Shown here one piece after another: positions 1-30,886 of a stretch of 30,886 bases of DNA. The notes below the pieces were generated by a model. It had not been told where the DNA came from. It did not search any database and was given only the letters and a program-made list of their open reading frames with translations. Location of the stretch: assembly GCA_900128565.1 (NCBI GenBank), contig LT635962.1, positions 1 through 30,886 on the forward strand. Direction: 5' to 3'. Within the stretch, counting starts at the first letter, position 1. Every line of letters starts with the position of its first letter. The stretch comes from Stramenopiles sp. TOSAG23-6 (lineage: Eukaryota; Sar). Made by a program: the position numbers and the translations under genes.

Positions 1-52
1 TACAAAATTTCGTACGAAAAAAAAATCGAATTTGAAAAAAAATAAAACATAC
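1..52 (-). mobile_element. Introner copy 1 (truncated by window edge)
   Basis: On the minus strand the intron starts GTATGTTTTATTTTTTTTC immediately after the codon CAT. It continues into the family core CGTACGAAATTTTGTA, where the window stops. The 3' half, including the CCTAACGA motif and the acceptor, is outside the window. The exon end AAT-CAT matches the YAT preference of the other copies. Confidence 0.8.
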
Positions 53-1087: not shown

Positions 1088-2556
1088 TTATCTTTTAATC
1101 ACGATAATACCATCACCAAGGACAGACCAATAATCTATATTTACAACCCATCCAAAATGTGCAATAACAGCTTTTATCTGCCAGTCAGAAGGATCTTTGA
1201 AATAGAAAATAGTACCAATATTTACTGTGTCCCAAAGTTGGGTGAGAAAAACTTCCCAGTGACCACGACATTCATATATTGTGAAAAAATATTTCAAAAA
1301 AAAATTGAAAAAATTCGTTAGGTACAAAATTTGGTACGAAATAAATAAATTCGAAATTCAATTTTGAAACATACATGTAAAACAAATGAAAACAAAAATA
1401 CATTAATATCTCTGCATCGATTATACAATTCGACATTTTCAAATTGTTTCTTGTCTTGTTTATCAACTAACTCAGTATTACCTTGATTTACTATGGATGA
1501 AATTTCTTTCGAGTTAGGGTTAGGGTAAATTAATGGTGATTTCAAATTGCATGGTAAACAATCAATCTTATGCCCAATTATTGTACTCAATTTTTCAACT
1601 AAAGGTGACCAATACTCGGATACGAAATCAAAAACAAAATAATCTGTTGTTGTCTTCGAATTCAGACAAAGTTGTTTAAACAAATGAAATCCATATAAAT
1701 CGTTACCTGGTCCACCCCCAATGGAAGCTATTTTTAATGAAGATGATTTCAAAAGTTGGTCGGATATACACTTAATTCCATTACATTGTAGTAGTGAAGG
1801 ATTTTTTTTCTTTTTCATTTCTATTTCCATGGGCTTTTCTATTGTTTTATTTCCCTCCATTTCTAATGGACAAGTTATACCTATAGGGTTAGGGTTAGGG
1901 CTAGAGTTACTTATGGTATTAGTACTTGTAATTACTGAGTGAAATGCTTCAAATACAAGTAATGCACGATTTGTAAATTTATGCTTCAAATATCCCCAAA
2001 GAGCACCTTGTTCGGAGAAATCCTCTTTTTTAACATCTCCTTTTCTCATTTTTAGCTGAAGCTCGTTCGATAGTTTTATGTTTTTACTTCGCAGTGTTTG
2101 GTATCTAGGCTCATCAGATAATAAAAGCTGAGTATCATTTTGAAATCTTTTGTGCACTTTAGCAATTAGCTCAGGTGGAGCTGTGCTAAATTCTACTTTG
2201 GCTCCACGCATTTTTGCCCCACTACCACCAGGTTCAAGACGAGCCCGACCTCGGCTTGTACTTTGCTTTTTAAGCCAGCGTGTTAGCTTCGCATCGGGCT
2301 CTCCTACCAAATCTTGAGTTGCATTCCTCTTTTTACCTCGTTTGTGGTCAACCCTATCTACACGTCTAATGCCTAGTGCAATCAATGCATTTTCACCAGG
2401 TAATATTGGTCGGTTCAGTGTGCCCTCCTTCCTGAGTGTGGCCGCTGCTTCCCTCTTGCGTTCGGTAACGTTCCCGCTGGCCCAGTCTTCCCCCCATCGC
2501 CACTTACAATACGTTCTGATATTCGACTTCCTGCGTTTTCCTTTTGTGCGAGCCAT
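1088..2556 (-). CDS. SAM-dependent methyltransferase of unknown target
   Basis: Two exons: 2556-1375 (394 codons) and 1273-1088 (61 codons plus TAA), joined across introner copy 2, give a 455-residue protein. The first ~130 residues are very basic (MARTKGKRRKSNIRTYCKWR at the start), suggesting a nuclear, nucleolar or RNA-binding protein. The glycine-rich SAM-binding loop SIGGGPGND is in the second half, followed by an acidic strand (DYFVFDFVSEYW) and, near the exon junction, NVFLFSFVLHECRGHW. The last part, DTVNIGTIFYFKDPSDWQI to IVIKR, reads as the C-terminal strands of a class I methyltransferase fold. Without the second exon the fold would be cut. Two telomere-like tracts lie in its linker regions and encode NPNP. 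The substrate cannot be told; an rRNA or other RNA target is only a guess from the basic N-terminus. Confidence 0.72.
1274..1374 (-). mobile_element. Introner copy 2, AG-less intron in methyltransferase
   Basis: This is a 101-nt intron starting GTATGTTTCAAAATTGAA. It has the full core CGTACCAAATTTTGTACC, then CTAACGA, a T-rich stretch, AAATATTTTTTCACAAT and a final ATAT. No AG dinucleotide occurs anywhere in it on the sense strand. The upstream exon ends TTA-CAT and the downstream exon resumes GAA-TGT, giving L-H-E-C-R in frame with the rest of the methyltransferase. Confidence 0.88.
1514..1526 (+). repeat. Telomere-like TTAGGG tract in coding sequence (1)
   Basis: TTAGGGTTAGGGT on the plus strand lies inside methyltransferase exon 1. 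The sense strand reads the C-rich version and encodes Pro-Asn-Pro-Asn (context IYPNPNSKE). It interrupts a low-complexity linker, not the fold core. Confidence 0.8.
1884..1900 (+). repeat. Telomere-like TTAGGG tract in coding sequence (2)
   Basis: TAGGGTTAGGGTTAGGG on the plus strand lies in methyltransferase exon 1. The sense strand encodes Pro-Asn-Pro-Asn-Pro (context SSPNPNPIG) in a Ser/Thr/Asn-rich linker upstream of the SAM-binding loop. Confidence 0.82.
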
Positions 2557-2840
2557 TGGGAATAAAATAAACTGGAAAAACGTGCACCAGGGACCGAGCT
2601 AGAGAATGTAGAGGGTGGTATTTAAAAAAGGTAATGGAAATAATTTAGGTAAGTGCTAGTAGTACTGCTAAGTTCTACTATAGTTACCGAATCTATAATT
2701 GCCTACCTACAATAACTAGCCTAAGTACCTGTAGTTATGTAGTTGTTTACATAAACAGTGGTGGGGACGTGCAGCTGAATCTATCAAAAAGTAGCAAATT
2801 TTTCATTTCCGATTTCAATTAATTCGAGAATATATTCATT
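2557..2840. promoter_or_regulatory. Divergent promoter region, methyltransferase / ADAL
   Basis: These 284 bp separate two divergent start codons (2556 minus, 2841 plus), so they must hold both promoters. The DNA has many short CTA/TAG words (for example 2655-2735) but no motif I can name. No RNA gene is seen. Confidence 0.4.
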
Positions 2841-4164
2841 ATGTGGGATTTTATAACTCATATACTAGCTTACCCGACTGGCATTTTTGTGGCTTGTGTC
2901 TCCGTTGCCACAGTGCATAGGTTCCAAAGACATTCACGGAGAAAGCGTATTTCTTTCAAGAGATTTTGCAAAGTCATTCCTAAGATTGAGCTTCACGCTC
3001 ATCTTCATGGTTCAATTAGAGATTCAACATTAATTGATCTAATGAAGAATCTTAATTATTCAAAAAAAAAGATATCTGAATTCCCACTGCATGGCGAAAG
3101 ATCAATTAGTGAATGTTTCGAGGTATTTGCTCTCATTCATAAACTAGTTTTAGATGCTGAAACAGTTGCTCGCATCACTAGAGAAGTTCTTGAAGACTTT
3201 GCTGCTGATAATGTAAAATATGTAGAGTTGCGAAGTACACCGAGGGTAGTTGAACAACATGGCTTAACAAAACGATTGTATGTTAAAACTGTTGTAGATA
3301 CGTTGAAGCATTGTGAAGAGATGCTTGGAATTCGTGCGCGTCTTATCCTCAGTATTAATAGAAAAGAAACACTAAAAGATGCTTTTGAAACACTCGAACT
3401 CGCGATGGAATTTGCAAATACTAATGATGGATCAACAAATTATGTCGTTGGTTTGGATTTTTCTGGTAATCCCACAATTAGCTCATTTAGTGCATTTTAT
3501 CCTGTATGGAAAAAAGCAAAAGAAAGTGGATTAAAACTTGCAATTCATGTTTGTTTTCGACATAAATTTCAATTTTTTTTTTGTATGAAAATTCGTACCT
3601 AACGGGTTTTTTTTTTTTCAAAAAAACAAATATTTTCTTACAGCACATGTCGGTGAAGTACCTTGTGCTGCATATACCGTACTGACATCGGATGAAACAC
3701 AGATGACACCTGAAGAAAAGAGTGCGGTCGATACAACAGATATTTTACAATTCAATCCTGATCGATTAGGGCATGCTGTATGCCTCAACCACGACCACAA
3801 AACATATTTACTTTCACAATTACAAGACAAAAATAGAAAAGCAATTCCAATAGAAATTTGTCCAACATCCAATGTAAGAACGTTAGGATTAAAGAAATAT
3901 GAGGATCATCCAACATGTAAGTTTTGGTTGGATGTAGGATATCCAATAAGTATAAATACAGATGATATGGGAGTTTTTTCTACATCTCTCAGTGAAGAAT
4001 TATTTCGTATCGGTAATGCTTTAAAAATAAGTAAAGTTGAGTTGGGAAAACTTGTTGTAAACTCTATTTCTCATTCATTCTTATCAGAAAAAGAAAAACA
4101 GAAAATGTCAAATGAATTTCGGTTGAAAATATCTTCTTGCTTAAGACTGTGTAATGTTGAGTAG
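2841..4164 (+). CDS. ADAL: ADAL-like adenosine / N6-methyl-AMP deaminase
   Basis: Exons 2841-3548 (236 codons) and 3649-4164 (171 codons plus TAG) give 407 residues, longer than the roughly 355 of animal ADAL. The family motifs are complete and in order: the metal-binding H-x-H in ELHAHLHGS (about residue 51), the catalytic HVGE (spanning the exon junction, about 236-239), RLGHAV (about 267) and the acidic NTDDMGVF (about 333). The family hydrolyses 6-amino or N6-methyl purine ribosides/monophosphates in purine salvage; ADAL itself acts on N6-methyl-AMP. Oddly, the N-terminus (residues 5-27, FITHILAYPTGIFVACVSVA) is hydrophobic and followed by an Arg/Lys cluster. This suggests a membrane anchor or targeting signal not usual for ADAL. 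The gene is divergent from the methyltransferase and convergent with TMEM258. Confidence 0.9.
3549..3648 (+). mobile_element. Introner copy 3, intron in ADAL
   Basis: This is a 100-nt plus-strand intron starting GTTTGTTTTCGACAT, with core ATTCGTACCTAACGGG, a long T-run, CAAATATTTTCTTACAGC and a final ACAT. The exon ends GCA-ATT-CAT and resumes GTC-GGT-GAA, so the junction rebuilds the conserved I-H-V-G-E. This copy does contain CAG, but 5 nt before the boundary. Splicing at that AG shifts the frame and soon meets a stop. CATGT is present at both junctions, like a short direct repeat. Confidence 0.88.
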
Positions 4165-4299
4165 TTGGTACACTCAGTAGAGTTCTAGAGTCACTTACTA
4201 CCAGTTCAAAAACAAATTACTGATGCGTTGTAAAAAATGTTAATACTTTATAATAAATGGCTTGGTTATTAAAGAAATAAATTGCCAATTCTTTATATG
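4165..4299. other. Short convergent intergenic spacer
   Basis: This spacer lies between the ADAL stop and the TMEM258 stop. It contains AATAAA-like words (4250-4285) that could serve 3'-end formation on either strand. No other feature is seen. Confidence 0.4.
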
Positions 4300-4509
4300 C
4301 TACACATAGAGCCCCGCCCATAGGAGTAAAAATAGTGTGCCGAACCCTAAAAAAACAGAACTGAACAAAGCTAACAGCAACTCAACCACGATGTTTTTCT
4401 TCTCACGTGTTACGCCCAATTCAAACACTAAGAATGCACCCGTGCCTAAGAGTCCAATAATTGTAAATATTATAGCAAAAAGACGGAAATTATATGTGGA
4501 AAGCTCCAT
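4300..4509 (-). CDS. TMEM258: TMEM258/Ost5, oligosaccharyltransferase subunit
   Basis: This is a 69-residue intronless protein from an ATG at 4509 to a TAG at 4300. It has two membrane spans, roughly residues 9-30 (RLFAIIFTIIGLLGTGAFLV) and 44-66. The end, GFGTLFLLLWAGLYV, closely matches the signature C-terminus of TMEM258/Ost5. Family length is 79-86 residues, so this is a complete small member. The family is a small subunit of the ER oligosaccharyltransferase that transfers glycans to Asn-x-Ser/Thr. It is divergent from the formin-like gene and convergent with ADAL. Its presence is coherent with the sequon-rich secreted protein encoded at 21638-23464. Confidence 0.9.
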   Translation of the reverse strand: MELSTYNFRLFAIIFTIIGLLGTGAFLVFELGVTREKKNIVVELLLALFSSVFLGFGTLFLLLWAGLYV

Positions 4510-4827
4510 ATTTTCTACAACTACAATGTTTGGTTTCTATACAAAACTAAAACAAGAAACTTGAGACCAATCTATCTTACTATTATCAAGGGACGCTGAA
4601 GTCGTTCGTTCGTGTGTCATGGATGGCCAAACGACCTGTCATTTTTGAGGTGAACCGGGTATCCGGATATCCGTCGGTTAAAACTTTCCCTCTCCTTTTA
4701 GAAAATAATCGTATCTACGTCTATTATATAGTCAAGGAAAAATAGAAATAGTTTTGCGTGAATTAGAACTCTGAATTGGAACTTGATTTTAAATTAAGCA
4801 TATATATCCGCATACACCAGAAGAATC
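4510..4827. promoter_or_regulatory. Divergent promoter region with motif shared upstream of MROH1
   Basis: These 318 bp lie between the TMEM258 and formin-like starts. AATCGTATCTA at 4707-4717 and TAGTCAAGGAAAAATAGA at about 4729-4746 recur in almost the same words, closer together, at 13144-13170 upstream of the MROH1-like gene. A small near-repeat GGGTATCCGGATATCCG occurs near 4658-4674. There is no RNA gene I can recognise. Confidence 0.45.
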
Positions 4828-7800
4828 ATGAGTGCTCCTCAGCCTCCATTGCCAAAAGATTGGATCGCGGCAACAGATAAAAAGACAGGTAAGCTTTACT
4901 ATTATCATAAAGTAACGCGAGAGACTACGTGGGTTCGTCCACTTCCTGAAGTGGGTGGTGAAACGAAAATAGACTCGAACAAGCAGGTAAAACGTACATT
5001 GTTGAGGGGTGGTATAACGCCCCGTTCAAAATTACTACAGTCGAAAAAAATGAAATCAGAAGCTGAACAATTTGTTGCGACGTCTTCACCTGATCAAATA
5101 CGAAAACGAATTGAACAACTAAAAGCAAAAGTCAAAAAGCAAAATGTTCAAGCCAAAAGAGCGAATCAAGAATTAGTAAGAACTATTCGTGCAACTGCGC
5201 AAGAAAGTCTTCAGCTTGTTAAACGCGAAGGTAATAATGCAAAAAAACTTCGTAGTAAAGTCAATGCAGTTGAAATTAAATTTGCAAAGACACAACAAAT
5301 GTGGTTAAGAAAATTGCGCGAAATGCAACAGATATTATTGAAAAAACACCAAGTTCAACTTTCGCGTTTAGCAAACGCAGATAGTCATATCTACGCACAA
5401 AAACCACAGCTTCAATTACAACAAACACAGGCTTTTCAGACGCCAATGCAGGCAAATCTACGACAGCATTTAATAACTGTCAAAGCAGCACTTGACGTTT
5501 CTCATTTAATTGATTCCGGCAACTCGGAAAAATTGAAACAGTTGAGGGAAGAAGGTCGGAAACAAAGACTAAAAACTATAGCAAATGAAGAGTCTGATTC
5601 TGCTAAATATAGAAAGTTACTTTATGATAGAGCAACAAAAAATCAAAAGTCAGATACATTGAAAAAGAAAGACTCTGACACTTCCCATGAGTTACACGAG
5701 CCACTACATTTTAGAAATCTGCCCGATAGAGATGATATTCAAAATATAGCCCCTGATTCAAAATCATTTGAGTTCCAACCACTTCTTTATTCTATCGAGA
5801 GAGGTCAAGATATTGAAAAAAACATTTCAAGTGCAAAGAAGGAACTATCTTGGGAAGTAACGGAAAGAAATTTAGAAGAATTTGCAAAGAAGACCAAAGA
5901 GAAGCTTAGCAATATAACCGACCCTACAGAAAAAGAAAAAGTCGATTACCGTGCTGTTATTATTGAGGGCGAAGTTGATAAACGTCATTTATCAAGATTG
6001 TGGCATACGAGACATTTGTCTCTTCACGCAGGGGTGATGGTTATAGAAGCAAAACCTAAGAAAATTTTGAAATTAATTAAAACACGTTCTCATAAACACG
6101 AGTACCATGTAAAATGGTGCAGTGCAAAACTAGCCCGACATGCTGAGGGGAAGAAAAAAGGGGAATTATACGACGGTGGTCGAGTTTTCGTGTTGTCCAC
6201 TGGAGAAGATGGTAAGCATATTCTAGTATTGAGAGTGAAAACACCAGAGCAAGCAGAAGTTTGGGTGGAACAAATCAATTTAGCCCGAGTTGCTGAATTA
6301 GAGAGACTTGCTCAAAAAGCAATTCCACAAAAGAAAAAAATATTTGACGCAATGCCTGATACGGGGAATCTTGAGAAATTACAAAATAGAGTAAAAGAAA
6401 GTAAAAAAACGCTAGAGCTTGCAGTGAAGGACTGCAATGCTGAAAGAGCGGAAATGCTTCTGAAATTGCGCGCTTTATCTGCAAAGGCATTGGATACAAT
6501 AGGGAGTAAACATTTCAATGTTCCGGACGATGAAAGTAAAACAGAAAAGGTAATTCCACAGTATGTAGTAAACGATAATATATATATTCACCATGATACA
6601 CATGATAAGTTCTTATCCGCTACGATTACAAAAGTAGACGACGATGGTTGGTTTCATTGTAGGGTATCCAATGGAGGGAAAAAGTATAAGGTTTATGGCG
6701 TAGATTATGGTACAAAATGGATCTTCCCAGAGAAAGTAAATGATAAGATATTAGTACACCATGATGTACATGATAAATTTGTAGCTGCGACGATTACAAA
6801 AGTTAAAGACAGTTGGTTTCAATGTACAATAGATGAAGGGGGGAAATTGTATAATGTTCATACTGAAGATTTTGGTAGAAAATGGATTTACCCAGAAGAA
6901 AAAGTAAAGCGTCGCACAAAGTATGACAATAATGTGTCGACAAATCGTCATATTAGAGTCCTCCCAAATACTACAGATATCTCTGTCCTGGGAGTACTAG
7001 GTGAACATCATAAATTGTACAAAACTAAGCGAAGCAGGTTACAACACGGTATGAGGGTTCTGAATAAAGTTCACGAATATATGAATGATAAAGATCATTT
7101 TCGTGAGGAGCATTGGAATTATATCAACAAGTTGTTAGGCTACGATCTTGGAAGTCCCTCAAATAGTCCTACCAACTCCCCTCGATATAGTGATAGACAT
7201 AGTCCAAGAGCATTTCGTGTTCCATTGGCAAGGAAAGACTTGCGCCTGGATCCTTCTGATGAACAGTTTATTGAATGGATGGGGCGCCTTCGAAAATCGG
7301 AAGCGTTATTAGACGTCAAACTTTATGGTGTCAAAAGTATGATATTAATAGTTTCACTAATGCAACTGGCACCGTCGCTTGAGTTTTGGCAAAAACGTCG
7401 GCGATATCAACATGAAATATTTGCGGAACTTCAGCAATTAAATGGTAGTGGAAGCGCGCCAAGTGAGTGGAATGTTGATGAAATTGTATCTTGGGTTCGT
7501 TACACTTTACTGGAACCACAGTGTGCTGACGCGTTTAAGACAGAAGATGTGGATGGTATTACTTTACTACAACTAGATGAAGAGACATTTGCTGAGCTTG
7601 GAATTAATGATTCTCGAGTATGTAAAAAGGTCATGCGAAGATTTGCAAATATTGAAAATTTATACAGAGAGAAACTAAAAAAGAAGGAAAGAGAAAAGGC
7701 AAAGGAAAAACGATCACGAGAAAGAAAAGCTCATAAAAAACATCATCATCGGTCTAGGGTAAGTGATCTCATAAAGAGATTTACCAAGAAAGATGATTCT

Positions 7801-10800
7801 TCAAATAGTAGCGATACGGAGGATGAACATGATGAGCGTAAAATANAAAATANAAAAAAACAGNAAAAATNANTCCAGAGTATGCGGTAAATGACAATAT
7901 ATATATTCACCATGATGTGCATGATAAGTTCTTAGCCGCTACGATTACAAAAGTTAACGATAATTGGTTTCAATGTACAATAAATGATGGGGGGAAATTG
8001 TATAATGTTCATGAGGAAGATTATCGTACAAAATGGATCTTCCCAGAGAAAGTAAATGATAAGATATTAGTACATCATGATATACATGATAAATTTGTAG
8101 CTGCGACAATTACAAAAGTTAAAGACAGTTGGTTTCAGTGTACAATAGATGAAGGAGGGAAATTATATAATGTTCATACAGAAGATTTTGGTAGAAAATG
8201 GATATATCCCGAGAAAACAGTGTTACTTCCAGAAACACTGAAAGTAAAACAGAAACATCATAGTGTTCAGTTTACATTATTTGTATCTAGAAGTTTAGCT
8301 AATCTCGTTGCTGATGGTATTGATTGCTTAGGCAAATTAAACCCACGACAGCGAACAGCTGCATTTACTCGTCTTCGCCAAGCAGCTTTACTTTTGCTTG
8401 CACAATTAGAAAAATGTGCTGAAAGAAGACGGTCAATGGATCTAAAAGTTCCTTCTCATAAAGTTGGTCCGTATGCAACAGTTGTTCAACTACATCAGCG
8501 TGTTCAGCAACTTGAAGGGTTGGTGAAGCATGGCCCAGCATTAGAAAAAGACATGGGCTTAGCGTGGGGTCCAAAACTAAAGGAAAAAGAGGGCGAAGAA
8601 GATCATCCTGGTGACGCTTTAGCTGATTTACAAGAAAACTATGATGAGTTGCAGAAATCATATAAAGAAATGAAAGCAAAGTTGGATGCTCAAAAAATGA
8701 AAAGAAGAGCTTCTATGAATGCTCTACAAGCAAAACTAGATGCTGCAAATGAGGTAGCCGATGCAGCAATTCTTGCTAATAAAGATAGTGCAATAGAACT
8801 CAAACAAAATGCTGAAAGAATTGAAGAGATGAAAGAAGAATTAGAAAAACGACATGAAATTGCAGACCGTATTGGCGAGCAAGCTATTGGTGTTGTGAAA
8901 GCCAAAGGAGAACTTGCTCAGGATATGTTACATAATGGTTCTCGGGAAGCTCCATCCAAAGACTTGCAATCCAAAGGACAATTTTTATGTTGGCGTACTC
9001 AACTTTGGTGGTATTGCGAGCATCGGTTGGCTGCAATGGGTATGATGCGCAACTTATTGTTAGTTGCAAAAACTCGCCGTCGTCGACGTATTTTATTCAA
9101 AGTTCAGGTTCTTGGATTATTTAAACGCATAGCTAATGTTCGACGACAAAGAAGTAGGGCAAAGAAAGTATTATCATTAGGTATAATACCAGCATTACTT
9201 CGTCGACGAAGCCAGTCGCAGCTAATGTTGAAAATGTGGATCCTGGGTTCAACAGGTTCTTTGATTAATAAACGAAATGAGTTACACGTTGGAGTGACTT
9301 TAGGTTTATGTGGAGCACTTGAATATCTACAGGAGGAAAGAGATAGATTCGGATCCAGTAGGAAACGAGGTCGTGGTTCTTCTAGTAAATTAAAAAGGAG
9401 AAAAACGAAGTACGGAATAGTTGTACCAAAGACTAAAGTGCGCATTGGGCATTCTATTGCAGATGAAGGCCTGTGGAAAATGATGACACATTTGAAGGAA
9501 ACATTGTCTACGGGTGTAAACACCGATGAAGGAGAAATTCATTTTAATCGAGATAAAAATGGTTCTATTATCAAAAAGAAGGACCACACAGCGGATGAAC
9601 TTGTATATGATGTATTTGATGATTTTGAAAATGTTTTTACTTCTCGACCGATTCCAAAACATAAAAAGAAGAAAAAAAAACACGGTTTAGAAGGGCAGAA
9701 ATTCAAGTTTGAATTATCAAAGATGACTGCTCAATTCTCCACCAAAATTTCAGTTTCTTCGAAGAAGATTGAAAAATCATTTCCTAATTTTGACGATTTG
9801 TTCAAAGCTGTAGGAGTCTTCGATGTTGCTAAAGTAAGCGACGAAGATATCACAATGGTTAATAATCTTTTTGGGCCTGACGGAGATGGCGCAGACTTAA
9901 AAACTTGTATTTCTGAGTGTTTCCATATTCTTTCAGTCATTCGGGACCACGCTGCTGGTGTACACAAAGAAGAGAAAGGTGATACCGGGCGCCCAATAAG
10001 GAAAGGAAGAGCAGGAGAAGTAGACAAAATAGAAGAATTATTAAGGCAAAGACGAGAGAAACGATCCGGTTCAAAGAAAAAACAAACTATCAAAAAAGCG
10101 GTATGTTTATTTAAATCACTTGCTGATGTCAAGAATATGAAGGAGTATATTGCGAGAGTTATTGCACATCCTGCTATTGACATTGATAAATCGGCAAAAT
10201 TTCTATGTAATTTAATGGCAAGCTTAGATCCAGAAGATAAACTTGTGAATCCTTCGGAGAGATTGCCCATCTTTCACGAGAAGATTTCGTTGATGATGTC
10301 TTGTTATGAAATGCCTCGAATGGTGAAAGATATCGGGGATAAACTTGCGACTCTTCGAAAAGTAACGGAAGAGGTTCTCACATCCAAAAATCTACAAGAA
10401 TTTTTATGTGTTGTTTGTAAACTGGTCAATTCAATGAAAAAATGCAAGAAAGAAATGCCTCTTAATGCGATTGACGTCTCGGAATTTGATTTAGTGTTCT
10501 TTCAATCTCTCACTCAACATCCATACAATGAGAAGAAACCTCTTTGTTATTATGCTATTCATAAAATATCTCACGCACCTAAACTGGAGCATATTCTTAA
10601 TTTTCCTCGAGAGTTGTCTAATCTTGAGGAAATGTGCAAGATAGGATTTCATGTATCTCTTGATCTTCTCTTTCGTCAACTTAAAAGCGCTATTGACACA
10701 GCAAAAGCCCAATTCAAGGTATTTTCTAAGCATGGTGATGAATCATGGAAAGTTCATCTTGAAGGAATTGTAAATGACATGGAAACACATCGCAAGGATC

Positions 10801-11384: not shown

Positions 11385-11495
11385 ATTTGAATTGTAGCAT
11401 TTTTATTTGAAAAAAACAAGATAATTCTACACGGTCTTTGACAAAACTGAAATTCATAACGTGTTTTGTTTTACACACAATTTTCAATTGATTAT
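11385..11495. other. Short convergent spacer
   Basis: These 111 bp separate the stop codons of the formin-like gene (+) and CFAP210 (-). AT-rich; nothing else seen. Confidence 0.4.
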
Positions 11496-12893: not shown

Positions 12894-13208
12894 ATCTTAT
12901 GTGTAATGTTTATGTGTGTGTTAGCTCTTGGAATGATGGTATTACAATATAAAAGCCTTCTGTAATTTGACTGTTTGGTGGAGAGAGTGATATAGATAAA
13001 GCTACAAGAGATGAAATCTTTCTTGTCACTAATGTAACCGAAAACAAAAAAACACGAAATCGGCCTAAATAATTGAAGGATTCGATAAAATTCCGTCGAT
13101 CTTGGCCAACTCTTTTTTTGAGAAGGATCATTGTTCGTCTAAAAATCGTATCTAGTCAAGGAAAATAGATACTAATACTATTCAAAAAAAAGATACTGTA
13201 AAAAGGCG
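12894..13208. promoter_or_regulatory. Divergent promoter region, CFAP210 / MROH1-like
   Basis: These 315 bp lie between two divergent starts. The sequence AATCGTATCTAGTCAAGGAA at 13144-13163, running on into AATAGATA, is the compact version of the split motif upstream of the formin-like gene at 4707-4746. Its downstream end is about 40 bp from the ATG at 13209. Confidence 0.45.
13144..13170 (+). promoter_or_regulatory. Upstream motif shared with formin-like gene
   Basis: AATCGTATCTA followed directly by GTCAAGGAAAATAGATA. The same two blocks occur at 4707-4717 and 4731-4746 with 13 extra bases between them. In both places they precede a plus-strand start codon by under 125 bp. A promoter or initiator role is inferred from position only. 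Confidence 0.4.
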
Positions 13209-19025: not shown

Positions 19026-19268
19026 CCTGTATTATATGTATAAAATACAGCATACGCTTTTATTAAAATTGATAAAATATAAATCATGCCCTTTTTCTAT
19101 TTTTATTTTATTTGAGGAGCTTTGCTTCTTGGACATGTACTTTGCTATTCATTCGTAGTAACAAATTCCAATAATTTACATAGTATTTATTTATAATTTA
19201 TTACATTTTGAATCAAAAGATGATTTCGATTTGTTTCAGTTTAAAATATGTTCAATACTGTCGCAACT
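19026..19268. other. Convergent intergenic spacer
   Basis: AT-rich 243 bp between the MROH1-like stop (+) and the DHCR24 stop (-). Nothing beyond A/T-rich 3' flank is seen. Confidence 0.4.
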
Positions 19269-21270
19269 TCAATCTATATCCTTATTAACGACTTTGTCGT
19301 AGAGCATTGGAAATCGATTCTTTGCATCATACTTTGCTTTTAATCGGTCATATTCAACACCATTAAAATGATTATGTACAAATTTACGTGAATACAAAAC
19401 ATCTGAATAAAAAGTCTTTCCGCCACCGTGTTCTTCAATAAGTGCATCGATTTGTCGATTATGCCAGTATTTTTCTCCCTTGTGAGCAGGGTTTCGGGGA
19501 ACTGAGCCAAATGCAGCAACATCCATCATCAAACCTTTCTGCTTCGGCTCCGCAACACATCGTGGTGGAGGCCATAATGTAGCATCGTCTGCAAGTTCGA
19601 GATGACTTCCAAATGTTGCCGGGCATATATTGTTAAAAAATATGTTTAGAAAAAAAAATCGTTAGGTACATATGAAAAAAAAATTAAATTCGAAATGGGT
19701 AAAAAAATAAAACAAACATATCCAAAAGGGCAACTTAGCATGCCCACCATCCAAAAGCTGTTGTATAAATTTGGAGGTTGTCTTGAGGGGTACACCCATA
19801 TCCTGAATGACAATTTCATCTTGATCCACTGGAAAAATCCATTTAGAAAAAATGTATTGTAAAATTTTTTTTTTTTTTTTTTTTTTTGGTTTAAAAAAAT
19901 CATCAGGTACAAAATTTTCATACAGAAAAAAAAAATTGGAATGAATGATGAAAACGTACATATTTAATATCCAATTCTTCATATATCGTAACTGTAAACT
20001 AAGTGACCATAAAACAGTGGATCGTAATACTCGACGTCCGAGTAACCAACGTACCCAAGGTATTCCCAAACGTATTGTGAAAAAATATTTTTTTTTTTTT
20101 TACGAAAAAAAAAATTGTTAGGTACAAAATTTTCTGCCAAAAAAAAAAAATTCGAAATTCAATTTTGAAAATGTACAAATGGAATTCCTAATGTACCCCA
20201 GAACATATCGGTGTCCCATCGCCAAAGATAATCATATATGCTCATACAGAAAACTCTGCTAGTATCACAAGCCAATATTACATCTAAAAAACGACCATCG
20301 TCAGGTAAGTCCTTTGGAAAAATATTCTAAAACATTTCAAATTCGTTAGGTACAAAATTTGGTACGAAAAAAAATCGAACTTGAAAAAAATAAAACAGAT
20401 AGTGAAAATGTACAATTTTACCAGAGGCATTTTCTTAAGCTTATTAGGGCAATTATTAAAAGCCACTTGGATGACCACACCTTCATTGGCTGATAGTACT
20501 AGTCCTTCAATGTAGTCAACTGATTTGATCTGAGGATTATGAGATTTGATGGTTGTAGAGATATGCGAACACTTTGTTGCGAGTCGACCGAGCTCCTCCA
20601 CTGCATCATTCAATGCCATCCGCCGAACAAAAACTGTCACAAAGGGTGAAATTTTCATTAGTGATAGCTTGACAGAAAGTGCATATCCAAGAGTACCATA
20701 ACTATGCGCGAAGCCAGAGAAAAGATCAGCGTTTTCGCCGTGCCTGTTACACAACAACACGCGTCCATCAGAAAGTAAGACTTCGAATTCAACTACCGTA
20801 TTATGAACGAAGCCATATCGCCAACTGGAACTTTCAATGGCGACACCCGAAAGTGCGCCGCCTACAGTAATGCTGTGAAGTATGAAAGTAGTGAAAGTGT
20901 TTTTAAAATGAATAATAACGTGAACAGTAGTTTGATAGGGGGAAGTTTAGTATTGCTTTTTAATAAACATTTCTTACGTATCCAACTCGGGCACAACCTT
21001 TGGTGCAAATCCCCTTGGCAACAGGAACTCGGTCAACATTTTAAATGGTGTTTTCCCACCTACTGTGACTGTACTCGCTTTGTTGTCAAAGTTGATGATA
21101 CCCACAAAAGCATTTAGATTTAGTTTTCCACCTGGAGTACGCTGGGCAGATTGCGCAAAGATCGTCGAGACATTTCCAGTTTGATCTAACCACATTAATT
21201 GTGTGCTAGCCTGCATCTGTTTCTGCGCTGTGTCTACCGCGAGCATGTAAGTATTCAGACCGAGCTTCAT
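19269..21270 (-). CDS. DHCR24: Delta(24)-sterol reductase (DHCR24/DWF1), six exons
   Basis: Exons on the minus strand: 21270-20978, 20872-20422, 20326-20177, 20069-19960, 19851-19718 and 19624-19269 (TGA). The sum is 498 codons (497 aa), close to the 516 of human DHCR24. The FAD-binding (PCMH) domain carries VVPELDTITVGGALSGVAIE, split by intron 1. Then come SENADLF-like GENADLFSGFAHSYGTLGYA, VDYIEGLVLSANEGVVIQVA, DTDMFWGTLGIPF, WLLGRRVLRSTVLW, VIQDMGVPLKTT, the PFWICP motif, and a C-terminus with ALIEEHGGGKTFYSDVLY and MLYDKV. The enzyme reduces the C24 double bond of sterol side chains, using FAD and NADPH at the ER. The frame is open upstream of 21270 to about 21364 without another ATG, so a further 5' exon is possible. 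Intron 1 is ordinary GT-AG; introns 2-5 contain introners. Confidence 0.92.
19625..19717 (-). mobile_element. Introner copy 4, AG-less intron 5 of DHCR24
   Basis: A 93-nt intron starting GTTTGTTTTATTTTTTTACC, with core CATATGTACCTAACGATTT, then CATATTTTTTAACAAT and a final ATAT. It has no AG on the sense strand. The exon ends TTT-TGG-ATA-T and resumes GC-CCG, restoring the family motif W-I-C-P. ATATG occurs at both junctions, so a 4-5 nt direct repeat flanks the element. Confidence 0.9.
19852..19959 (-). mobile_element. Introner copy 5, AG-less intron 4 of DHCR24
   Basis: A 108-nt intron starting GTACGTTTTCATCATTC, with TTTTGTACCTGATGATTT in the core position, a long A-run, ATTTTACAAT and a final ACAT. 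No AG lies within it. The first AG downstream (TTTTTCCAG, 19832-19840) gives a frame with an early stop. The family 3' boundary gives N-I-F-S-K-W-I-F-P in frame. Confidence 0.85.
20070..20176 (-). mobile_element. Introner copy 6, intron 3 of DHCR24
   Basis: A 107-nt intron starting GTACATTTTCAAAATTGAA, with GAAAATTTTGTACCTAACAA, T- and A-runs, AAATATTTTTTCACAAT and a final ACGT. The only AG lies in mid-element. The exon ends GGA-ATT-CCA-TTT and resumes TTG-GGA-ATA-CCT, joining the frames of FWGTLGIPF and WVRWLLGRR. Confidence 0.88.
20327..20421 (-). mobile_element. Introner copy 7, DHCR24 intron 2 with possible GT-AG ends
   Basis: It carries the family 5' word GTACATTTTC, the full core CGTACCAAATTTTGTACC and CTAACGA. 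The best canonical reading uses an upstream donor GTAAAATT (8 nt before the family start) and a TTTTAG acceptor, 95 nt in all, giving M-P-L-N-I-F-P-K. An alternative using the family rule (20322-20413) is also in frame and gives M-P-L-V-K-F-F-P-K. The sequence cannot decide between them. Confidence 0.82.
20873..20977 (-). other. Ordinary GT-AG intron 1 of DHCR24
   Basis: A 105-nt intron from GTAAGAAATG to TACTTCACAG, joining GAT-AC to C-ATT-ACT in the conserved ELDT-ITVGG. It has no introner core. It shows that conventional splice sites are used in the same gene. Confidence 0.9.
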
Positions 21271-21637
21271 TGTTTCCTTTATACTGAGTAGTGATTGCAA
21301 AGACTTTTGAACCTCGACTCGAGACGGAGAGTCGAGACACAAAAAAAGATAATCTCCGATACGATACTACGCGTAATAATATTATACACCGGGTAACGAT
21401 TTCAAAGATTTTTTGATATTTTGATATTTTATGAAAATTGAATTTATTTATCTTTTATTATGTACAAAGTTAGTTTGATTTTATAAAATAAAATCAAAAC
21501 TGTGATAAAATTACTTCAATTATATACATATATCACATCGCCATTCATTTGATTGAATTGTACATTATTACAATTGCAAATAATAAAACACTAATTTAAA
21601 AAAATGGATACTCAGTGATTCTTTCGTCCTCCTACAT
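21271..21637. promoter_or_regulatory. Upstream region of DHCR24
   Basis: These 367 bp lie between the DHCR24 start and the stop of the ARM-repeat gene. The first ~95 bp are open in the DHCR24 frame without an ATG, and could be 5' leader or part of an unseen exon. The rest is strongly AT-rich with short TTTTGATA repeats at 21410-21430. Confidence 0.4.
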
Positions 21638-23464
21638 TTATTGTATTTTTTCTTTTTTTATTGCTTCTTCACCTGCTGAAGCTGATGCAGCGTTTTGTTG
21701 CCGGTAAGACATAATCCGATTCGATATTGTTTTTGATAAGGCAGCAATTGTAGAATTTGTATGTTTTTGAAGACTCTGAATCATTTCTGTTGTACCTTGA
21801 ATTTCATCAATTTTTGCCGTGTTAATTAGACTGCTTTGTGTGATGAGCAGCAGTACACCAAGTGCAGTATGTAAAATATGAAGATTATTCTGATGATCCT
21901 TCAACGATTTTACAATTGTAGCAATAGCATCTTCTGTTGCTCCAACCTTTGTTTGATTATCGGGATGTTTATATGTGGTGTTCAACAGTACACCAAGTGC
22001 CTGTGATACAATTTTAGGATTATTTTGATGATCCTTCAACGATTTTACAACTGTAGCAATAGCATATCCTGTTGCTCCAACCTTTGTTTTATTATCAAAA
22101 TGTTTATATGTGATGTTCACCAGTACACCAAGTGCCTGTGCTACAATTGTAGGATTATTTTGATGATCCTTCAACGATTTTACAACTGTAGCAATGGCAC
22201 CGTCTGTTGCTCCAAACTTTGTTTGATTATCAGGATGTTTACATGTGATGTTCTCCAGTACACCAAGTGCCCATTTTACAATTAGAGGATAATTTTGATG
22301 ATCCTTCAACGATTTTACAACCGTAGCAATGGCACCGTCTGTTGCTCCAACCTTTGTTCGATTATCACGATGGTTGATTGTGATGTTCGCCAGTACACCA
22401 AGTGCAAATGTTACAATTTTAGGATTATTTTGATGATCCTTCAACGATTTTGCAATTGTAGCAATGACACCGTCTGTTGCTCCAACCTTTGTTTGATTTT
22501 CACGATGGTTAAATGTAATGGTCGCCAGTACATCAAGTGCCCATGTTACAATTCCAGAATTATTTTGATGATCCTTCAATGTTTTTACAATTGTAGCAAT
22601 TGCATCTTCTGTTGCTCCAACCTTTGTTTGATTATCGGGATGGTGAAATGTGATGTTCCTCAGTACAGCAAGTATATTTGCTACAATAGCAGTATTATGA
22701 TGATTCTTCAACAATGATACAATTGTAGCAATAACATCTTCTGTTGCTCCAACCTTTGTTTGATTATCAGGATGGTGAAATGTGATTTCCGCCAGTACAA
22801 CAAGTGAGTTTATTAAAACGCCATCATCAGAAGCATTTTTCATAAGCTCAATAATTTTTTCAGTATTAATATACACTTTGCAAGCTTCCTCACTCATTAG
22901 TAGTTTCGAAAGTATAAATAGCGATTGTTGAATAACATCATTAATATTGTATGTAAAAAATCCCTGCAAGACATTAAATATTTCAACATTTTCCCTGATA
23001 ACTCTTCTCTTTTCTGGAATCATGACCATGTTCTGCAGTTCCATGAGAATTAAGTCACATGATTTCATTGCTTGGGTTCGTAAATGCGGAGAATGTATTG
23101 GAATGGATTTATGTATCCCTTGATAGCAGTGTCCAGCACGGAGCTGTTGAATGATTGCTTTTACTTCAGCATCTGAGATTTTTTGACAACATTTCATGCA
23201 CAACCAGTAGTTACAAGATTTACACGCGGCCACATGCGTATGCTTATTAATGTGACACTTACACCCGTCACATATGCCGTGTCCATTGGCTTCGAAGTTT
23301 TGCAACTGGTGGCCAAGGTTACACGGACCTGAAACTCTACTTCGTTTCGCACTTGACACGTCAGTTCCACCTGCATGCGGTCGTTTAGCGTTAGCAGCTT
23401 TGATAAACACAAAGTTACTGATTGAAACGAGCAAACATAGAGTAATTAGAGTAACGTTTTTCAT
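21638..23464 (-). CDS. Predicted secreted ARM-repeat protein with Cys/His domain
   Basis: 608 residues from the ATG at 23464 to TAA. Residues 1-27 form a good signal peptide (MKNVTLITLCLLVSISNFVF, cleaved near KAANA). Next comes a Cys/His-rich module at about 47-96 (CNLGHQLQ, CDGCKCHINKHTHVAACKSC, CMKCCQKI) that looks like a C1/DC1-type zinc-binding domain. About seven armadillo-type repeats of 44-45 residues follow (consensus LKDHQNNPxIVxxALGVLxN, then ITxxHxDNQTKVGATD), flanked by more divergent ones. Most units carry an N-x-T in DNQT/ENQT/DNRT/DNKT, and several a second one in NIT. ARM proteins are usually cytosolic, so the signal peptide and glycosylation sites point to an exported or vesicular scaffold. 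The function is unknown. It is divergent from another signal-peptide gene. Confidence 0.78.
   Translation of the reverse strand: MKNVTLITLCLLVSISNFVFIKAANAKRPHAGGTDVSSAKRSRVSGPCNLGHQLQNFEANGHGICDGCKCHINKHTHVAACKSCNYWLCMKCCQKISDAEVKAIIQQLRAGHCYQGIHKSIPIHSPHLRTQAMKSCDLILMELQNMVMIPEKRRVIRENVEIFNVLQGFFTYNINDVIQQSLFILSKLLMSEEACKVYINTEKIIELMKNASDDGVLINSLVVLAEITFHHPDNQTKVGATEDVIATIVSLLKNHHNTAIVANILAVLRNITFHHPDNQTKVGATEDAIATIVKTLKDHQNNSGIVTWALDVLATITFNHRENQTKVGATDGVIATIAKSLKDHQNNPKIVTFALGVLANITINHRDNRTKVGATDGAIATVVKSLKDHQNYPLIVKWALGVLENITCKHPDNQTKFGATDGAIATVVKSLKDHQNNPTIVAQALGVLVNITYKHFDNKTKVGATGYAIATVVKSLKDHQNNPKIVSQALGVLLNTTYKHPDNQTKVGATEDAIATIVKSLKDHQNNLHILHTALGVLLLITQSSLINTAKIDEIQGTTEMIQSLQKHTNSTIAALSKTISNRIMSYRQQNAASASAGEEAIKKEKIQ
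21884..22800 (-). repeat. 135-nt tandem repeat array (ARM units)
   Basis: The word TGATGATCCT recurs at 21891, 22026, 22161, 22296, 22431 and 22566, exactly 135 nt apart, with one 132-nt unit at the proximal end. The DNA is highly similar between units, including at third positions, which suggests recent expansion or gene conversion. Confidence 0.92.
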
Positions 23465-23777
23465 TGTAACAAATAGTAGGGTTTGCAATAATTTGAGTTT
23501 TACTTGCGCGCGCACTTCTTGTAAACATTTCTACGTCTCTACGTCTCTACGCTGACTCTGTCAGCTGACCAACAGAAGTTTTTTTACTACACGAAATCAG
23601 GCACTTTGGTACATATATGCGAAATAATAGTAATATAGTCAGTCTATTACGCAACACTCTTCTTTTTGAAGTAGTAGAATCCTACCATCAATTTATTTCA
23701 CAAATCTAGTGTGCTATCAATAAATAGTTTGAAGCCAGAGATTTATCACAGTCTAACATATTATATTGATCAACGAA
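23465..23777. promoter_or_regulatory. Divergent promoter region between two secreted-protein genes
   Basis: These 313 bp separate the ARM-repeat start (23464, minus) and the poly-Q gene start (23778, plus). A short tandem CTACGTCT-type repeat lies at 23530-23551. Shared control of the pair is plausible from position only. Confidence 0.4.
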
Positions 23778-24614
23778 ATGGAACTTTGCAAGTATATTCA
23801 AATTGTTTTATTGTTGTGTATGCATCTACAACTCAACCTTGCCGCTCAAGAGGCTCAAGACAACCGCCTCTTCCATTTCATCTTTCCTCCAAACAACCTC
23901 TGGACAACGAACGAGTTCACCGCACTATCGAATGTGCCAATTACACAACAACAAGCCCAACAAGAGCAAATAAAGAAACAAGCTCAACACAAGCAACAAG
24001 CACAATACGGGCAACAAGCAGAACAAGCACAACAACAACAACAACAACAACAACAGCAACAAAAACTAGTACTACAAATACAACAACAACAACAACTACA
24101 ACTACTACGATAGCGTGCATTTTTTCAAGTAAACCCAATGAAGCTCGGTAATGCTCCATTATATATCAAGAGCAATCCTTTAATTGTCAAAGAAGCAGTT
24201 GAAAGTGATCCCAGTTCAATTCAGTTTGTAGGTGACCAACTTCTCAATGGAAAATTACCCGAAGTTTTAATAAACTACGCGATACAGAAAATGGCCGATT
24301 TGGTAAAACAAAATGGTATGAATCTAAAACGATTTGAATGGTTTTTTTATATTGATGAACATTCTATATTTTGCAAGTATCAGACTATTTTCGAAAACAT
24401 TGCAATGATGGCAATTTGTCAAAATAAAGAAGCAGCGAAATTTCTTCCTTATAACTTCAAACTTAAATTGCCATTTCAAATGTGGCTACGACTCCAAAAT
24501 GATGGTTCATATGAAGAATTTATTAAACAGCGCCAGGATTTGAAACAAGAGAGTGATGAATTGAAGTTGCGAATATCTAAATTTGCTCTTGAGAAGGGAT
24601 ATATTATTAATTGA
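23778..24614 (+). pseudogene. Secreted poly-Gln / DUF4116-like protein with in-frame TAG
   Basis: From the ATG at 23778 the first 24 residues form a signal peptide (MELCKYIQIVLLLCMHLQLN, then LAAQ). A short globular stretch (FHFIFPPNNLWTTNEFTALS) and a Gln-rich tract follow, to a TAG at 24111-24113. The same frame reopens at once (RAFFQVNPMKLGNAPLYIKS) and runs to TGA at 24614. The second part resembles DUF4116-type repeats (NPLIVKEAVESDPSSIQFVG). As both halves share one frame and the TAG differs from CAG by one base in a Gln-rich context, this looks like one gene with a nonsense change. Read-through, a sequence error, or a separate 158-residue protein from the ATG at 24138 are alternatives. 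Confidence 0.6.
24027..24105 (+). repeat. CAA/CAG trinucleotide repeat
   Basis: A run of CAA with rare CAG codons, interrupted once near 24063-24080. It encodes poly-Gln in the frame with the signal peptide; the +2 frame would give poly-Thr. Such repeats vary in length and invite sequencing errors, which matters for the nearby TAG. Confidence 0.9.
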
Positions 24615-24765
24615 TAAGTTTGTGACTATTACTTGAACATTTTTTATGATGATAAAAAAATATTAAGAAAAAGAAGCATTAAATATAAATTATGCATATT
24701 TTGTGGTTTTATCGGGCCTTTATTGGTTTATTATTATCAAAATAGGAAACAAAACAGATATATTT
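24615..24765. other. Short convergent spacer
   Basis: 151 bp between two TGA stops; AT-rich, nothing further seen. Confidence 0.4.
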
Positions 24766-27336
24766 TCAAGCCTGTTCATTCGCTTTGCTTTTTCCAGACG
24801 ATTTTCTTTTTTTCTTTTTCGGTTTTGCTGGAATCATCATTCGCATTCCTCCTTGCGCAGCCAAACGTTCTCTCAATGCAGATTTTCTATCCACAGCCTT
24901 TCTAGCTTCAACATCCTCCGGTGTTTCTTTTATATCAGAATCAGAATCAGAGTCTGGGGGAGGCGGCGGTGGTGATGAACCACGCCTCGCTTTTGGCGAG
25001 TTACCATCTACAGACACGGGACGCGATGGCCTCGGTGGGGGTGATTTTACTGTTGACGGAGTACTACCGCCTTGCATAACTGCTATAGGTTCAATTTCCG
25101 CATTTTCCTCGTTTGCTTTTGAAGAGGGTGAAGGAATACCACTGGTGACATCCGGCCCTTGATATTTGTTTTCATCTGATGACTTTGACACTAGCTTTGA
25201 TGCAGCTTCGATCTCACCAATTGTGGGTGATGCAAAGATACTTAACCTGCCACTATTTACACCTTTCAACGAGACTGTCTTTGACCTCTTTCTACCTTGC
25301 TCTGGGCTTTCCAGAATCTCTTCTGCAACGACAAGTTTAACATAATTTCCAGGAAAAAATCCTTCAGACCCTATTGGTATTCCTTGATCAGTAACAAGAG
25401 CTCCAGTCCACCACTCATTTACCCATGATGTCACTAAAATCATATCACCTAGAGAAAAATTGAGTCCCTGTTCATTTTCTGTTTTAAAGTCATATTGAGC
25501 TACGGCAAGCTTTGTTTCTCCAATCCGCATATCATCAACATTGTCATCCTTTGCAGAAATCTTTGAAGAACCGTTCGATACGTCATTGGTAGCAGTAGAT
25601 GCTTTCTGCTTTGGTGAAGAAGATTTGCTAAATGCATTAGAAACTCTATTGATTGACATTCGTTTTTCGCGCTTTATTTGTGCATTCATTGCTGCCATTG
25701 CTAAAGGATTTGGTTCCCTTTTATTTGCAGATAACCGATTTTTATTATTATCAATTGTAGGTGAATCTTCTTTTACTTCCAGAGGCTTAACTTCATCTGC
25801 TTCAGAGGTAAGACTTTCGTCTGGGTCGCTAACTGAAGTTTTCTCTTGTTTTTCTGGAGGAGGTGGTGGGATCTCATCTGAAAGTTCTTCTTTTAAAGGT
25901 GGTGGTGGGATCTCATCTGAAAGTTCTTCTTTTAAAGGTGGCTGTGAGATCTCATCTGAAAGTTCCTCTTTTAAAGGTGGCGGTGAGATCTCATCTGAAA
26001 TATCATTTTCACTGCATGAAATACTTTTTTCTCTGTCAATCTTTTCTTCATCATTTTCAACAACTTTTTCGACTTCAATTTCACCTTCTTGCTGAACATC
26101 TGAGGAGTCGTCCGAATTATCCTCATATTCATTTCCAGAATTCACATCAGAAACGTTTTCTTTGACTTCAGAAACAATTGGACCAGAATTCACATCAGAA
26201 ACATTTTCTTTGACTTCAGAAACAATTGGACCAGATTCATCATTACGCATACTTTTATGATGACTATTTCGGGGACTCATGCATTGTGAAAAAATATTTT
26301 TTTTTCCCTAAAAATAAATCATTAGTTTTTTTACGAAAAAAAAAAAAATTCAAACATTCAATTTTGAAAACGTACATAGATCCTCGGCGAGCTTCAGGTC
26401 TCCTTTCTTGGTAAAGTTTTTTAATCACTGCTTCTTCAGTTAGTTTGGCTGCAAAAGCTTCCATCAAATGTTTTGAATTTCCACCAAAAGCAGCGAGTAC
26501 GTTTGTCATGGCCAATATTTCAGTACGAATCATTAATGCTTGTTGCATTTGGAGAAAGTATTGTGAAAAAATATTTTTTTTTAGTAAAAAAAATCGNTAN
26601 GTACNGNANTNCCATACGAAAAAAATAAATTTTGAAATTTTGAAAACGTACATATCCACTGCTTTGTTCATTCTCAGGTCTGCTTCTCTATATTCTTCTT
26701 CACAATTTTCGTGCGCTTGCTGTCTTTGTAGAAGTTTATCTTCAGCTAAAGCAGCAACTTCATGACGATTTTTCTTTGCAAAGAATCCTGTTTTCAATGC
26801 TGCTGCACGTGCCTTTCGAGCTTTTCCTGCCGACTTTTCAAGCTTATAGTGGGCAGTTTCCAGATTGTCCATTGCTTCACGTCGCTTTCCAATCGCTCGT
26901 TCAACGTCGCTAATGAGAGCAATCAAGTTCGTCTGAAAACTTTCGACCGGTGCAAGTAATGAGGTTTGCCAAGTGCGTTCGTTATCAATTGAAATGAGTT
27001 GTTTTTGTGCGTCTGATAAACGTGTAAGGTCCTCAATATTGGTATCTACGTCATCTACTATGAACTCTTGGAGGCATTCCGTAACGTTTACAGAACTCGC
27101 ACAATAATCGCGCATATTTTCCAGCATTGCAGATGTCGCTTTAGAAATGGATACAATTTTCTTCGCCATGGCTTTTTTTTCTCGGACAAAGTCATGCTCC
27201 TGTGAAGAGTAAGAAAGAAATATTAGGGTAGAAAGGTGAGTAATGTGTATTTACTGATTGTGAAAGTCTGTATTCAAGAGAGGTTACTAAAATGACTTAC
27301 ATCTTTATCCTTGTATTTTGAATAACTAGACCACAT
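24766..27336 (-). CDS. BAR-SH3 membrane-remodelling adaptor
   Basis: Four exons: 27336-27301 (12 codons, MWSSYSKYKDKD), 27199-26652, 26555-26376 and 26278-24766 (TGA), giving 758 residues. Residues about 15-250 form a helical BAR-type domain (SISKATSAMLENMRDYC to LMEAFAAKLTEEAVIKKLYQ). A long acidic, Pro-rich linker follows, with tandem repeats. An SH3 domain runs from about 510 to 575 (TKLAVAQYDFKTENEQGLNF, WWTGAL, GFFPGNYVKLV). The C-terminal tail has Pro runs and a Lys-rich end. BAR domains bind and bend membranes, and SH3 domains bind proline motifs of dynamin, WASP-type or formin partners; a link to the FH2 protein in this window is only speculative. Intron 1 is GT-AG; introns 2 and 3 are introners. 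Confidence 0.85.
25855..26000 (-). repeat. 39-nt tandem repeat in BAR-SH3 linker
   Basis: About four units encode LSDEIxxPPLKEE (Pro-rich and acidic). The unit is 13 codons, with near-identical DNA. The PPPP cores could bind SH3 or EVH1 domains. Confidence 0.85.
26135..26235 (-). repeat. 48-nt direct duplication in BAR-SH3 linker
   Basis: SGPIVSEVKENVSDVN is encoded twice in a row with almost the same DNA, just after the exon junction of introner copy 8. Confidence 0.85.
26279..26375 (-). mobile_element. Introner copy 8, BAR-SH3 intron 3
   Basis: A 97-nt intron starting GTACGTTTTCAAAATTGAA. An ACTAATGATTT takes the place of CCTAACGATTT, followed by AAATATTTTTTCACAAT and a final GCAT. The one AG inside (TTTTTAGGG) would give a frame ending in TGA. 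The family boundary joins GGA-TCT-AT to G-AGT-CCC (G-S-M-S-P). ATG is present at both junctions. Confidence 0.88.
26556..26651 (-). mobile_element. Introner copy 9, BAR-SH3 intron 2 (with Ns)
   Basis: About 96 nt from GTACGTTTTCAAAATTTC to AAATATTTTTTCACAAT and a final ACTT. The core is blurred by ambiguous bases at 26597-26611 but still reads as CGTATGG...GTAC.TA.CGATTT. The join GTG-GAT-AT / T-CTC-CAA keeps the BAR frame. No AG is visible. Confidence 0.82.
26597..26611. other. Ambiguous bases inside an introner core
   Basis: Six N bases (26597, 26600, 26605, 26607, 26609, 26611) fall exactly in the conserved core. This is the pattern expected if reads from several near-identical copies were merged. 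Confidence 0.8.
27200..27300 (-). other. Ordinary GT-AG intron 1 of BAR-SH3 gene
   Basis: A 101-nt intron from GTAAGTCATTTTAG to CTTACTCTTCACAG, phase 0, joining YKDKD to EHDFVREKK. It has no introner core. It supports starting the protein at 27336 instead of the internal ATG at 27169. Confidence 0.82.
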
Positions 27337-30822: not shown

Positions 30823-30886
30823 GTAAGTTTTATATGAATTTCTAATTTAATTTTTTTTTCATACGAAATTTCGTACCTAACGATTT
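30823..30886 (+). mobile_element. Introner copy 10 (truncated by window edge)
   Basis: The intron starts GTAAGTTTTATATGAATTTC after ADMWS in the kinase. It then shows the core CATACGAAATTTCGTACC and TAACGATTT, where the window ends. It is in the sense orientation of the gene, as all other copies are. Confidence 0.85.

Follow-up and report, generated by a model that had tools for sequence, protein, structure and literature searches.

The stretch analysed here, referred to below as the window, covers bases 1-30886 of contig C12 in a eukaryotic draft genome of 8,027,113 bases and 408 contigs, and it carries copies of a family of short introns that begin with an ordinary GT donor and end in AT, or in another NT, instead of AG. 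Judged from sequence, these introns are probably (we put it at about three chances in four) introners, that is, transposon-like elements of ~100 bp lying in coding sequence, mostly at (N)AT/G, which would be removed from the pre-mRNA by the spliceosome. The 3' AG is among the most conserved signals in eukaryotic introns. The copies belong to one repeat family and favour one strand, the cut is fixed in frame (and in codon where homologues allow), a usable AG is lacking and the ends bear a short direct repeat; these observations carry the argument. On the basis of the label carried by a EukProt match, we take the source organism for a MAST-3 stramenopile, which probably belongs to the single-cell assemblies of Tara Oceans presented in PMC5778133.

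A profile was built from the eight complete copies of the window and used in an nhmmer search of contigs of the draft. The search gave 143 matches in the first 221 kb, and a refined profile recovered 166 introner copies from 265,188 bases in 25 sequences, counted after loci L013 and L014, which repeat L012 on contig C408, had been dropped. Most of the searched loci were picked for carrying copies (L010-L029 mainly so, L010 and L011 for PRP8), and copy density was taken from L030-L035 alone; six 10-kb stretches sampled blind held 2, 3, 8, 8, 8 and 0 copies (29 in total). The exact 16-mer AAATTTTGTACCTAAC occurs 1308 times (684 + 624) in the 8 Mb, against 0 for its reversed control, and because it is present in 66 of the 166 copies the draft is extrapolated to hold ~3,300 copies, a figure somewhat inflated by duplicated contigs. 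Both ends were mapped in 107 of the 166 copies, 104 of these are also flanked by 60 nt on either side, and 84 of the 104 have clear reading frames, as assigned by codon usage trained on 50 long reading frames. Unless otherwise indicated, counts below refer to the 104 copies.

The copies are similar introns found at different sites and in unrelated genes, as introners are. On the sense strand the family consensus is AT/GTAYGTTTT...CCTAAC...T-rich...CAMAATAYAT/exon, where the slash marks the cut, or more fully about AT/GTAYGTTTTC...TTTCAAATTTATTTTTT...GTACGAAATTTTGTACCTAACAAATTTTTTTTT...GAAATATTTTTTCACAATACAT/G, and the length ranges from 83 to 125 nt with a median of 100. Introns start with GT (94 copies), AT (8, in frame in seven), GC (1) or TT (1) and end with AT (83), TT (8), GT (6), AG (3), AC (3) or CT (1), the pair GT..AT being present in 76 copies. 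The donor is GTRNGT-like as in U2-type introns, and a YTNAY-like branch motif, recognised in 92 copies with its A at a median of 38 nt before the intron end, is followed by a T-rich tract; the 3' AG of U2-type introns closes only 3 of the 104. These AG-ending copies, located in L016, L015 and L033, would be canonical introns and may show a step between the two end types. Inspection of the consensus by eye gave a candidate terminal inverted repeat of only about 4 bases (GTAY / RTAT). All but three copies lie on the coding strand (101/104), a bias that favours removal at the RNA level.

Within the window, an earlier sequence-only reading had proposed seven complete introns of this kind, and all seven stand at the proposed positions, belong to the one family and end in the tetranucleotides listed for them (ATAT, ACAT, ATAT, ACAT, ACGT, GCAT and ACTT). 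Six lie on the minus strand, at 1274-1374 (GTATGT...CACAATATAT; joins FVLH/ECRGHW in an open frame), 19625-19717 (GTTTGT...AACAATATAT), 19852-19959 (GTACGT...TACAATACAT), 20070-20176 (GTACAT...CACAATACGT), 26279-26375 (GTACGT...CACAATGCAT) and 26556-26651 (GTACGT...CACAATACTT, with several N), the last two being supported by profile match and frame bridging; the seventh, at 3549-3648 on the plus strand (GTTTGT...TACAGCACAT), splits an adenosine-deaminase-like gene (2841-4164, plus strand). An eighth complete copy at 20307-20413 (minus strand, GTACAT...CAAAGGACTT), absent from that reading, ends in CAAAGG+ACTT, holds three AGs and fits equally well. The fixed end four bases after YACAAT needs correction for the copy at 3549-3648, which has TACAGC+ACAT; the reason for the shared end is membership of one transposon-like repeat family and not a general splicing rule.

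Removal of the GT...AT stretch fits the reading frame modulo 3 in 79 of the 84 clear copies, where about one third would be expected. When the 3' end is slid along the sequence, bridged junctions number 82-89 of 104 at multiples of 3 and 15-23 at other offsets, a test that settles the frame and leaves the codon undefined. Retention of the element would shift the frame or hit a stop in 76 of the 79 in-frame copies. The codon comes from homologues, nine of which were compared for each of two genes. In the window gene for an FAD oxidase like delta24-sterol reductase, or DHCR24 (FAD_binding_4; 19269-21270, minus strand, 5' end provisional), which holds four introner copies and one ordinary intron, offset 0 is best at three of the four copies (19625-19717, 20070-20176 and 20307-20413) and also at the canonical GT-AG intron at 20873-20977 (minus strand, GTAAGA...TACTAAAC...CACAG), which served as a control. 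In the urocanase gene of L032, offset 0 is best at all three junctions, which are also aligned gap-free to a solved structure. Gap-free alignments to solved structures were likewise obtained across two of three junctions in propionyl-CoA carboxylase, across the sulfite oxidase junction and, against a solved deaminase-family protein, across the junction KLAIH/VGEV of copy 3549-3648. Since homologues have neither lost nor gained codons at these junctions, removal of the element with one copy of its repeat would restore the original gene. A TA target-site model was rejected because it would delete two codons per site, yet homologues align gap-free, and translational bypassing was set aside in view of the occurrence of introns in all three phases (34 in phase 0, 24 in phase 2 and 21 in phase 1 among the in-frame copies).

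No usable AG accounts for these junctions. AG is absent throughout the intron in 44 of the 104 copies; on re-reading, the copies at 1274, 19625 and 19852 proved to have none on the sense strand, as had been claimed, and the copy at 26556 likewise lacks it but contains several N. The claim that use of an AG breaks the frame in the copies at 3549, 20070 and 26279 was also sustained, since the sole AG would leave 5, 64 and 29 nt, respectively. More generally, the first AG at least 8 nt past the branch motif restores the frame in 20 of 70 in-frame copies (the 79 minus nine with no recognisable motif), which is the chance level, and these 20 AGs fall inside the intron in two cases, at the intron end in two and in the exon in 16. 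The genome nevertheless uses GT-AG as well, as had been proposed: the homologue-checked intron at 20873-20977 lies in the same gene as four introner copies, and is the one GT-AG intron with such support. When introns outside the family were counted automatically, YAG did not stand out from the control acceptors (YAG 7, YAT 11, YAA 7, RAG 5, YTG 5, YCG 4, YAC 4, YGA 3 and YGG 2), and the count therefore gives no frequency of GT-AG.

The intron end resembles the exon bases that precede its start. The base at exon position -2 equals that at intron position -2 in 84 of 104 copies, against a shuffled mean of 67.6 and a value that none of 5000 shuffles reached; position -3 agrees in 41 (shuffled 31.7, p 0.004). 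Position -1 is uninformative, being T almost throughout in exon and intron alike; no significant excess of identity was found there or at -4 to -8, and none between intron and exon positions +1 to +6. Taken together, the last two bases are identical on both sides in 76 of 104 copies (shuffled 59.7, sd 2.5; highest of 3000 shuffles 69) and the last three in 30 (shuffled 19.9; highest of 3000 shuffles 29). Identity of the last two is found in 44 of 52 copies of the better-scoring half and in 32 of 52 of the other. The 3' end of the intron is therefore probably a target-site duplication of 2 nt, perhaps 3 nt.

These features suggest how the introns could be removed. A donor (GTAYGT), a branch site (CCTAAC, with the A ~38 nt before the end) and a T-tract would all be brought in by the element, and U1, U2 and U2AF65 could commit such an intron to splicing with no AG in place. 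In the second step the exon would then be joined where the duplicated target (YAT/) ends. The target-site duplication, together with a narrow range of distances from the branch, would set the acceptor, and removal would return the gene to its state before insertion. What the copies show directly is the donor, the branch motif, the T-tract and the bias towards the coding strand; in the second step the spliceosome would have to tolerate U rather than G as the last intron base and sometimes an A at +1. The sequence-only reading had left the choice between an altered selection of the 3' splice site and a separate removal mechanism; with its T-tract, its branch-like motif CCTAAC and its bias to one strand, the family speaks for the spliceosome, and a separate mechanism is less favoured.

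That reading had also pointed to the splicing genes, of which some were recovered. PRP8 is present as a 2001-codon open frame that contains no introner, breaks at a run with N and is followed by the rest of the gene; a core stretch of 400 residues, within the region that contacts the 3' splice site, aligns gap-free and nearly residue for residue with human PRP8. A U2AF65 relative is encoded at L036:114-2075 (contig C376); in place of the RRM1-RRM2-UHM arrangement, its UHM is accompanied by two RRM1-like domains. The same layout is found in an MMETSP protein, in metagenome proteins and, over the shorter length of its sequence, in an Ectocarpus protein, and a special U2AF65 was dropped as a cause given that other organisms share it.

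Several results weigh against removal of these elements by the spliceosome with GT..AT ends. Removal as such is deduced from coding continuity, and the frame does not fit in 5 of the 84 clear copies. The copy at 19852-19959, whose frame is certain, cannot be placed to the codon, with scores of 919-925 across the in-frame offsets in a poorly conserved region, and the third propionyl-CoA carboxylase junction adjoins a 7-residue insertion. An Rfam search of the 8 Mb found neither U2 nor U6 RNA, a result that bears neither way because its positive controls were silent too, and a U2AF35 query of the 8 Mb, run with no positive control, was empty. Two further points of this kind, the ambiguity of the cut and the pairing of intron ends, are best taken together with the alternatives that they support.

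In most copies the position of the cut is ambiguous because of the direct repeat, given that GT..AT and AT..AC introns would yield the same mRNA wherever the last two bases are identical on both sides (76/104). The same introners might thus be cut two bases upstream at both ends, as AT..AC (or AT..AT) introns, exon positions -2/-1 being AT in 73 of 104 copies and intron positions -4/-3 mostly AC. This is an unlikely reading, although the best placed of the alternatives. The GT at +1/+2 (94/104) is better conserved than the exon AT. Of the 28 copies whose repeat is imperfect, 25 could be compared (three were skipped, their frame being unclear or unfit), and the AT-AC cut creates a stop in three of these and the GT-AT cut in none, which favours GT-AT short of proof. 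U12-type AT-AC introns have a ATATCCTT donor and a TTCCTTAAC branch close to the intron end. With the cut shifted by two bases the introners would share their AT..AC termini, but measured against this type the introner consensus contains neither the ATATCCTT donor nor the TTCCTTAAC branch, its 5' end is unlike that of a U12 intron and its branch-to-end distance, with a median of 38 nt, is long.

Somewhat less probable still is removal at the RNA level outside the spliceosome, as has been proposed for the nonconventional introns of euglenids, in which the two intron ends pair in a hairpin. The introners share with such a scheme the direct repeats at their ends and the absence of a 3' AG, and some pairing of the ends was predicted. 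In a fold test of 98 copies (six with N being excluded) against 490 shuffles, at least four pairs between the first and last 10 bases were obtained in 18 copies, compared to 8.8% of shuffles, and the expected number of end pairs was 1.37 versus 0.60. For copies 1274 and 3549 the predicted fold pairs the first bases with a segment that lies 15-17 bases ahead of the end; none of the seven folded window copies has four or more pairs between its first and last 10 bases. RNA structure may thus play a part in removal. However, 80 of the 98 copies have no such stem, the donor, CCTAAC and T-tract are spliceosome-like, and the GT-AG intron in the same gene, together with the ordinary PRP8 core stretch, indicates that a spliceosome is present.

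Excision at the DNA level, like that of the internal eliminated sequences of ciliates, would agree with precise restoration between short direct repeats, but it would not require the coding-strand placement of 101 of 104 copies, and motifs resembling splice signals are conserved; we regard it as very improbable. Equally improbable are ordinary GT-AG introns with an overlooked AG, which only the 3 of 104 mapped copies ending in AG would suggest, against the 44 that contain none, the chance-level frame of the first AG after the branch (20/70) and a EukProt GT-AG fit that at one urocanase junction costs a serine kept by homologues, or an assembly artefact, given thousands of copies at different sites.

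Removal by the spliceosome may be extended to a broader proposal, for which the balance is about even: that in this MAST-3 lineage the 3' splice site is specified by the transposition target and not by an AG, that a transposon family duplicating NT targets has made thousands of GT..AT introns, and that the U at which the spliceosome ligates, its PRP8 core being ordinary in appearance, is selected by the duplication and by the distance from the branch. If true, this would be an independent origin, in stramenopiles, of AG-free splicing on a large scale.

The introners also bear on the quality of the draft and its gene models. Contig breaks fall within introner copies, both in the window, where 5' parts of copies recovered as nhmmer matches are truncated by the window ends at 1-52 (minus strand) and at 30823-30886 (plus strand, within a protein kinase gene), their inner boundaries taken from the sequence, and at the ends of other contigs; the repeats therefore probably limit the assembly, and the family is probably undercounted. 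Contigs C408, C2, C4 and C13/C14 contain inverted or doubled stretches, as revealed by 16-mer positions and by the mutual repeats of L012-L014, and such stretches are as expected from whole-genome amplification of single cells.

The spliced urocanase of L032 matches EukProt GSMAST32.ASY1.ANO1.2386.1 and is identical to it save for gaps and mis-joined parts. This model, the single one compared, deviates from homologues at all three introner junctions: at one, ten residues look like intron sequence carried into the translation, a run of ~20 residues is dropped at another, and at the remaining one a homologue-conserved serine is lost where a GT-AG pair was fitted at another place. Three further gaps in the model lie away from any introner. 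In practical terms, the sole compared EukProt model of this organism is wrong at three introner junctions, and other gene models of this genome may be wrong too.

Other features of the window include telomere-like GGGTTA repeats at ~1511-1528 and 1884-1903, in the coding frame of a gene with no Pfam match. The protein encoded at 21638-23530 (minus strand) contains a 135-nt repeat (45 residues) seven times and is armadillo-like by eye, and an SH3-domain gene holds two in-frame tandem arrays, with a 48-nt unit (98% alike) at 26135-26230 and a 39-nt unit at 25846-26001. The core 18-mer of the introner had no match in viral contigs, and an Rfam scan of the 30,886-nt window was empty.

In the open-licence literature searched, no report was found of GT-AT introns or of introners in MAST-3, and the family therefore appears to be unreported there. 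Many eukaryotes are described as having introner families whose similar copies lie in unrelated genes, with target-site duplications in some of the families, and in that account the duplications often include the core GY/AG bases (PMC9860276). The introners analysed here share the family structure and, probably, the duplication, and differ in that the duplicated bases occupying the position of the AG are mostly AT or another NT.

Two systems come closer. The introners of Amoebophrya are described as non-canonical repeated introns with short direct repeats over their borders, thought to be transposon-like, in which inverted repeats of 8-20 nt pair the ends and no clear splice signature was found (PMC7789003). 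Non-canonical repeated introns, direct repeats at the borders and a presumed transposon-like spread are common to both, whereas end pairing here is only weakly above that of shuffles, a difference of degree, and GT..AT is found in 76 of 104 copies. In the tunicate Fritillaria borealis, a YAY motif is reported to recur at both borders, ahead of the 5' site and at the 3' end, in introns ending in AT or AC, the commonest non-canonical classes being AG/AC and AG/AT, and U2AF is duplicated (PMC13326754). The present introns resemble these in having a short motif at both borders (YAY there, mostly YAT here) and AT/AC ends, and differ in their ordinary GTAYGT donor, their derivation from one repeat family and their stramenopile lineage; the two RRM1-like domains of the U2AF65 relative found here also occur in proteins of other organisms and are thus not specific to this genome.

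Large-scale exceptions at the 3' end of introns have been described, in the reports consulted, for a tunicate (PMC13326754) and for parasitic dinoflagellates (PMC7789003). An unrelated lineage with a normal donor and branch motif and a near-uniform AT end would single out the 3' splice site as the relaxed element, and would make testable both the choice of an acceptor by the spliceosome when no AG is present and the role of intron-making transposons as the driver. Relative to non-canonical introners (PMC7789003) and introns bordered by YAY (PMC13326754), both already known from those accounts, what is new here is the lineage, together with a GT donor of the normal kind and an end that is AT almost uniformly.

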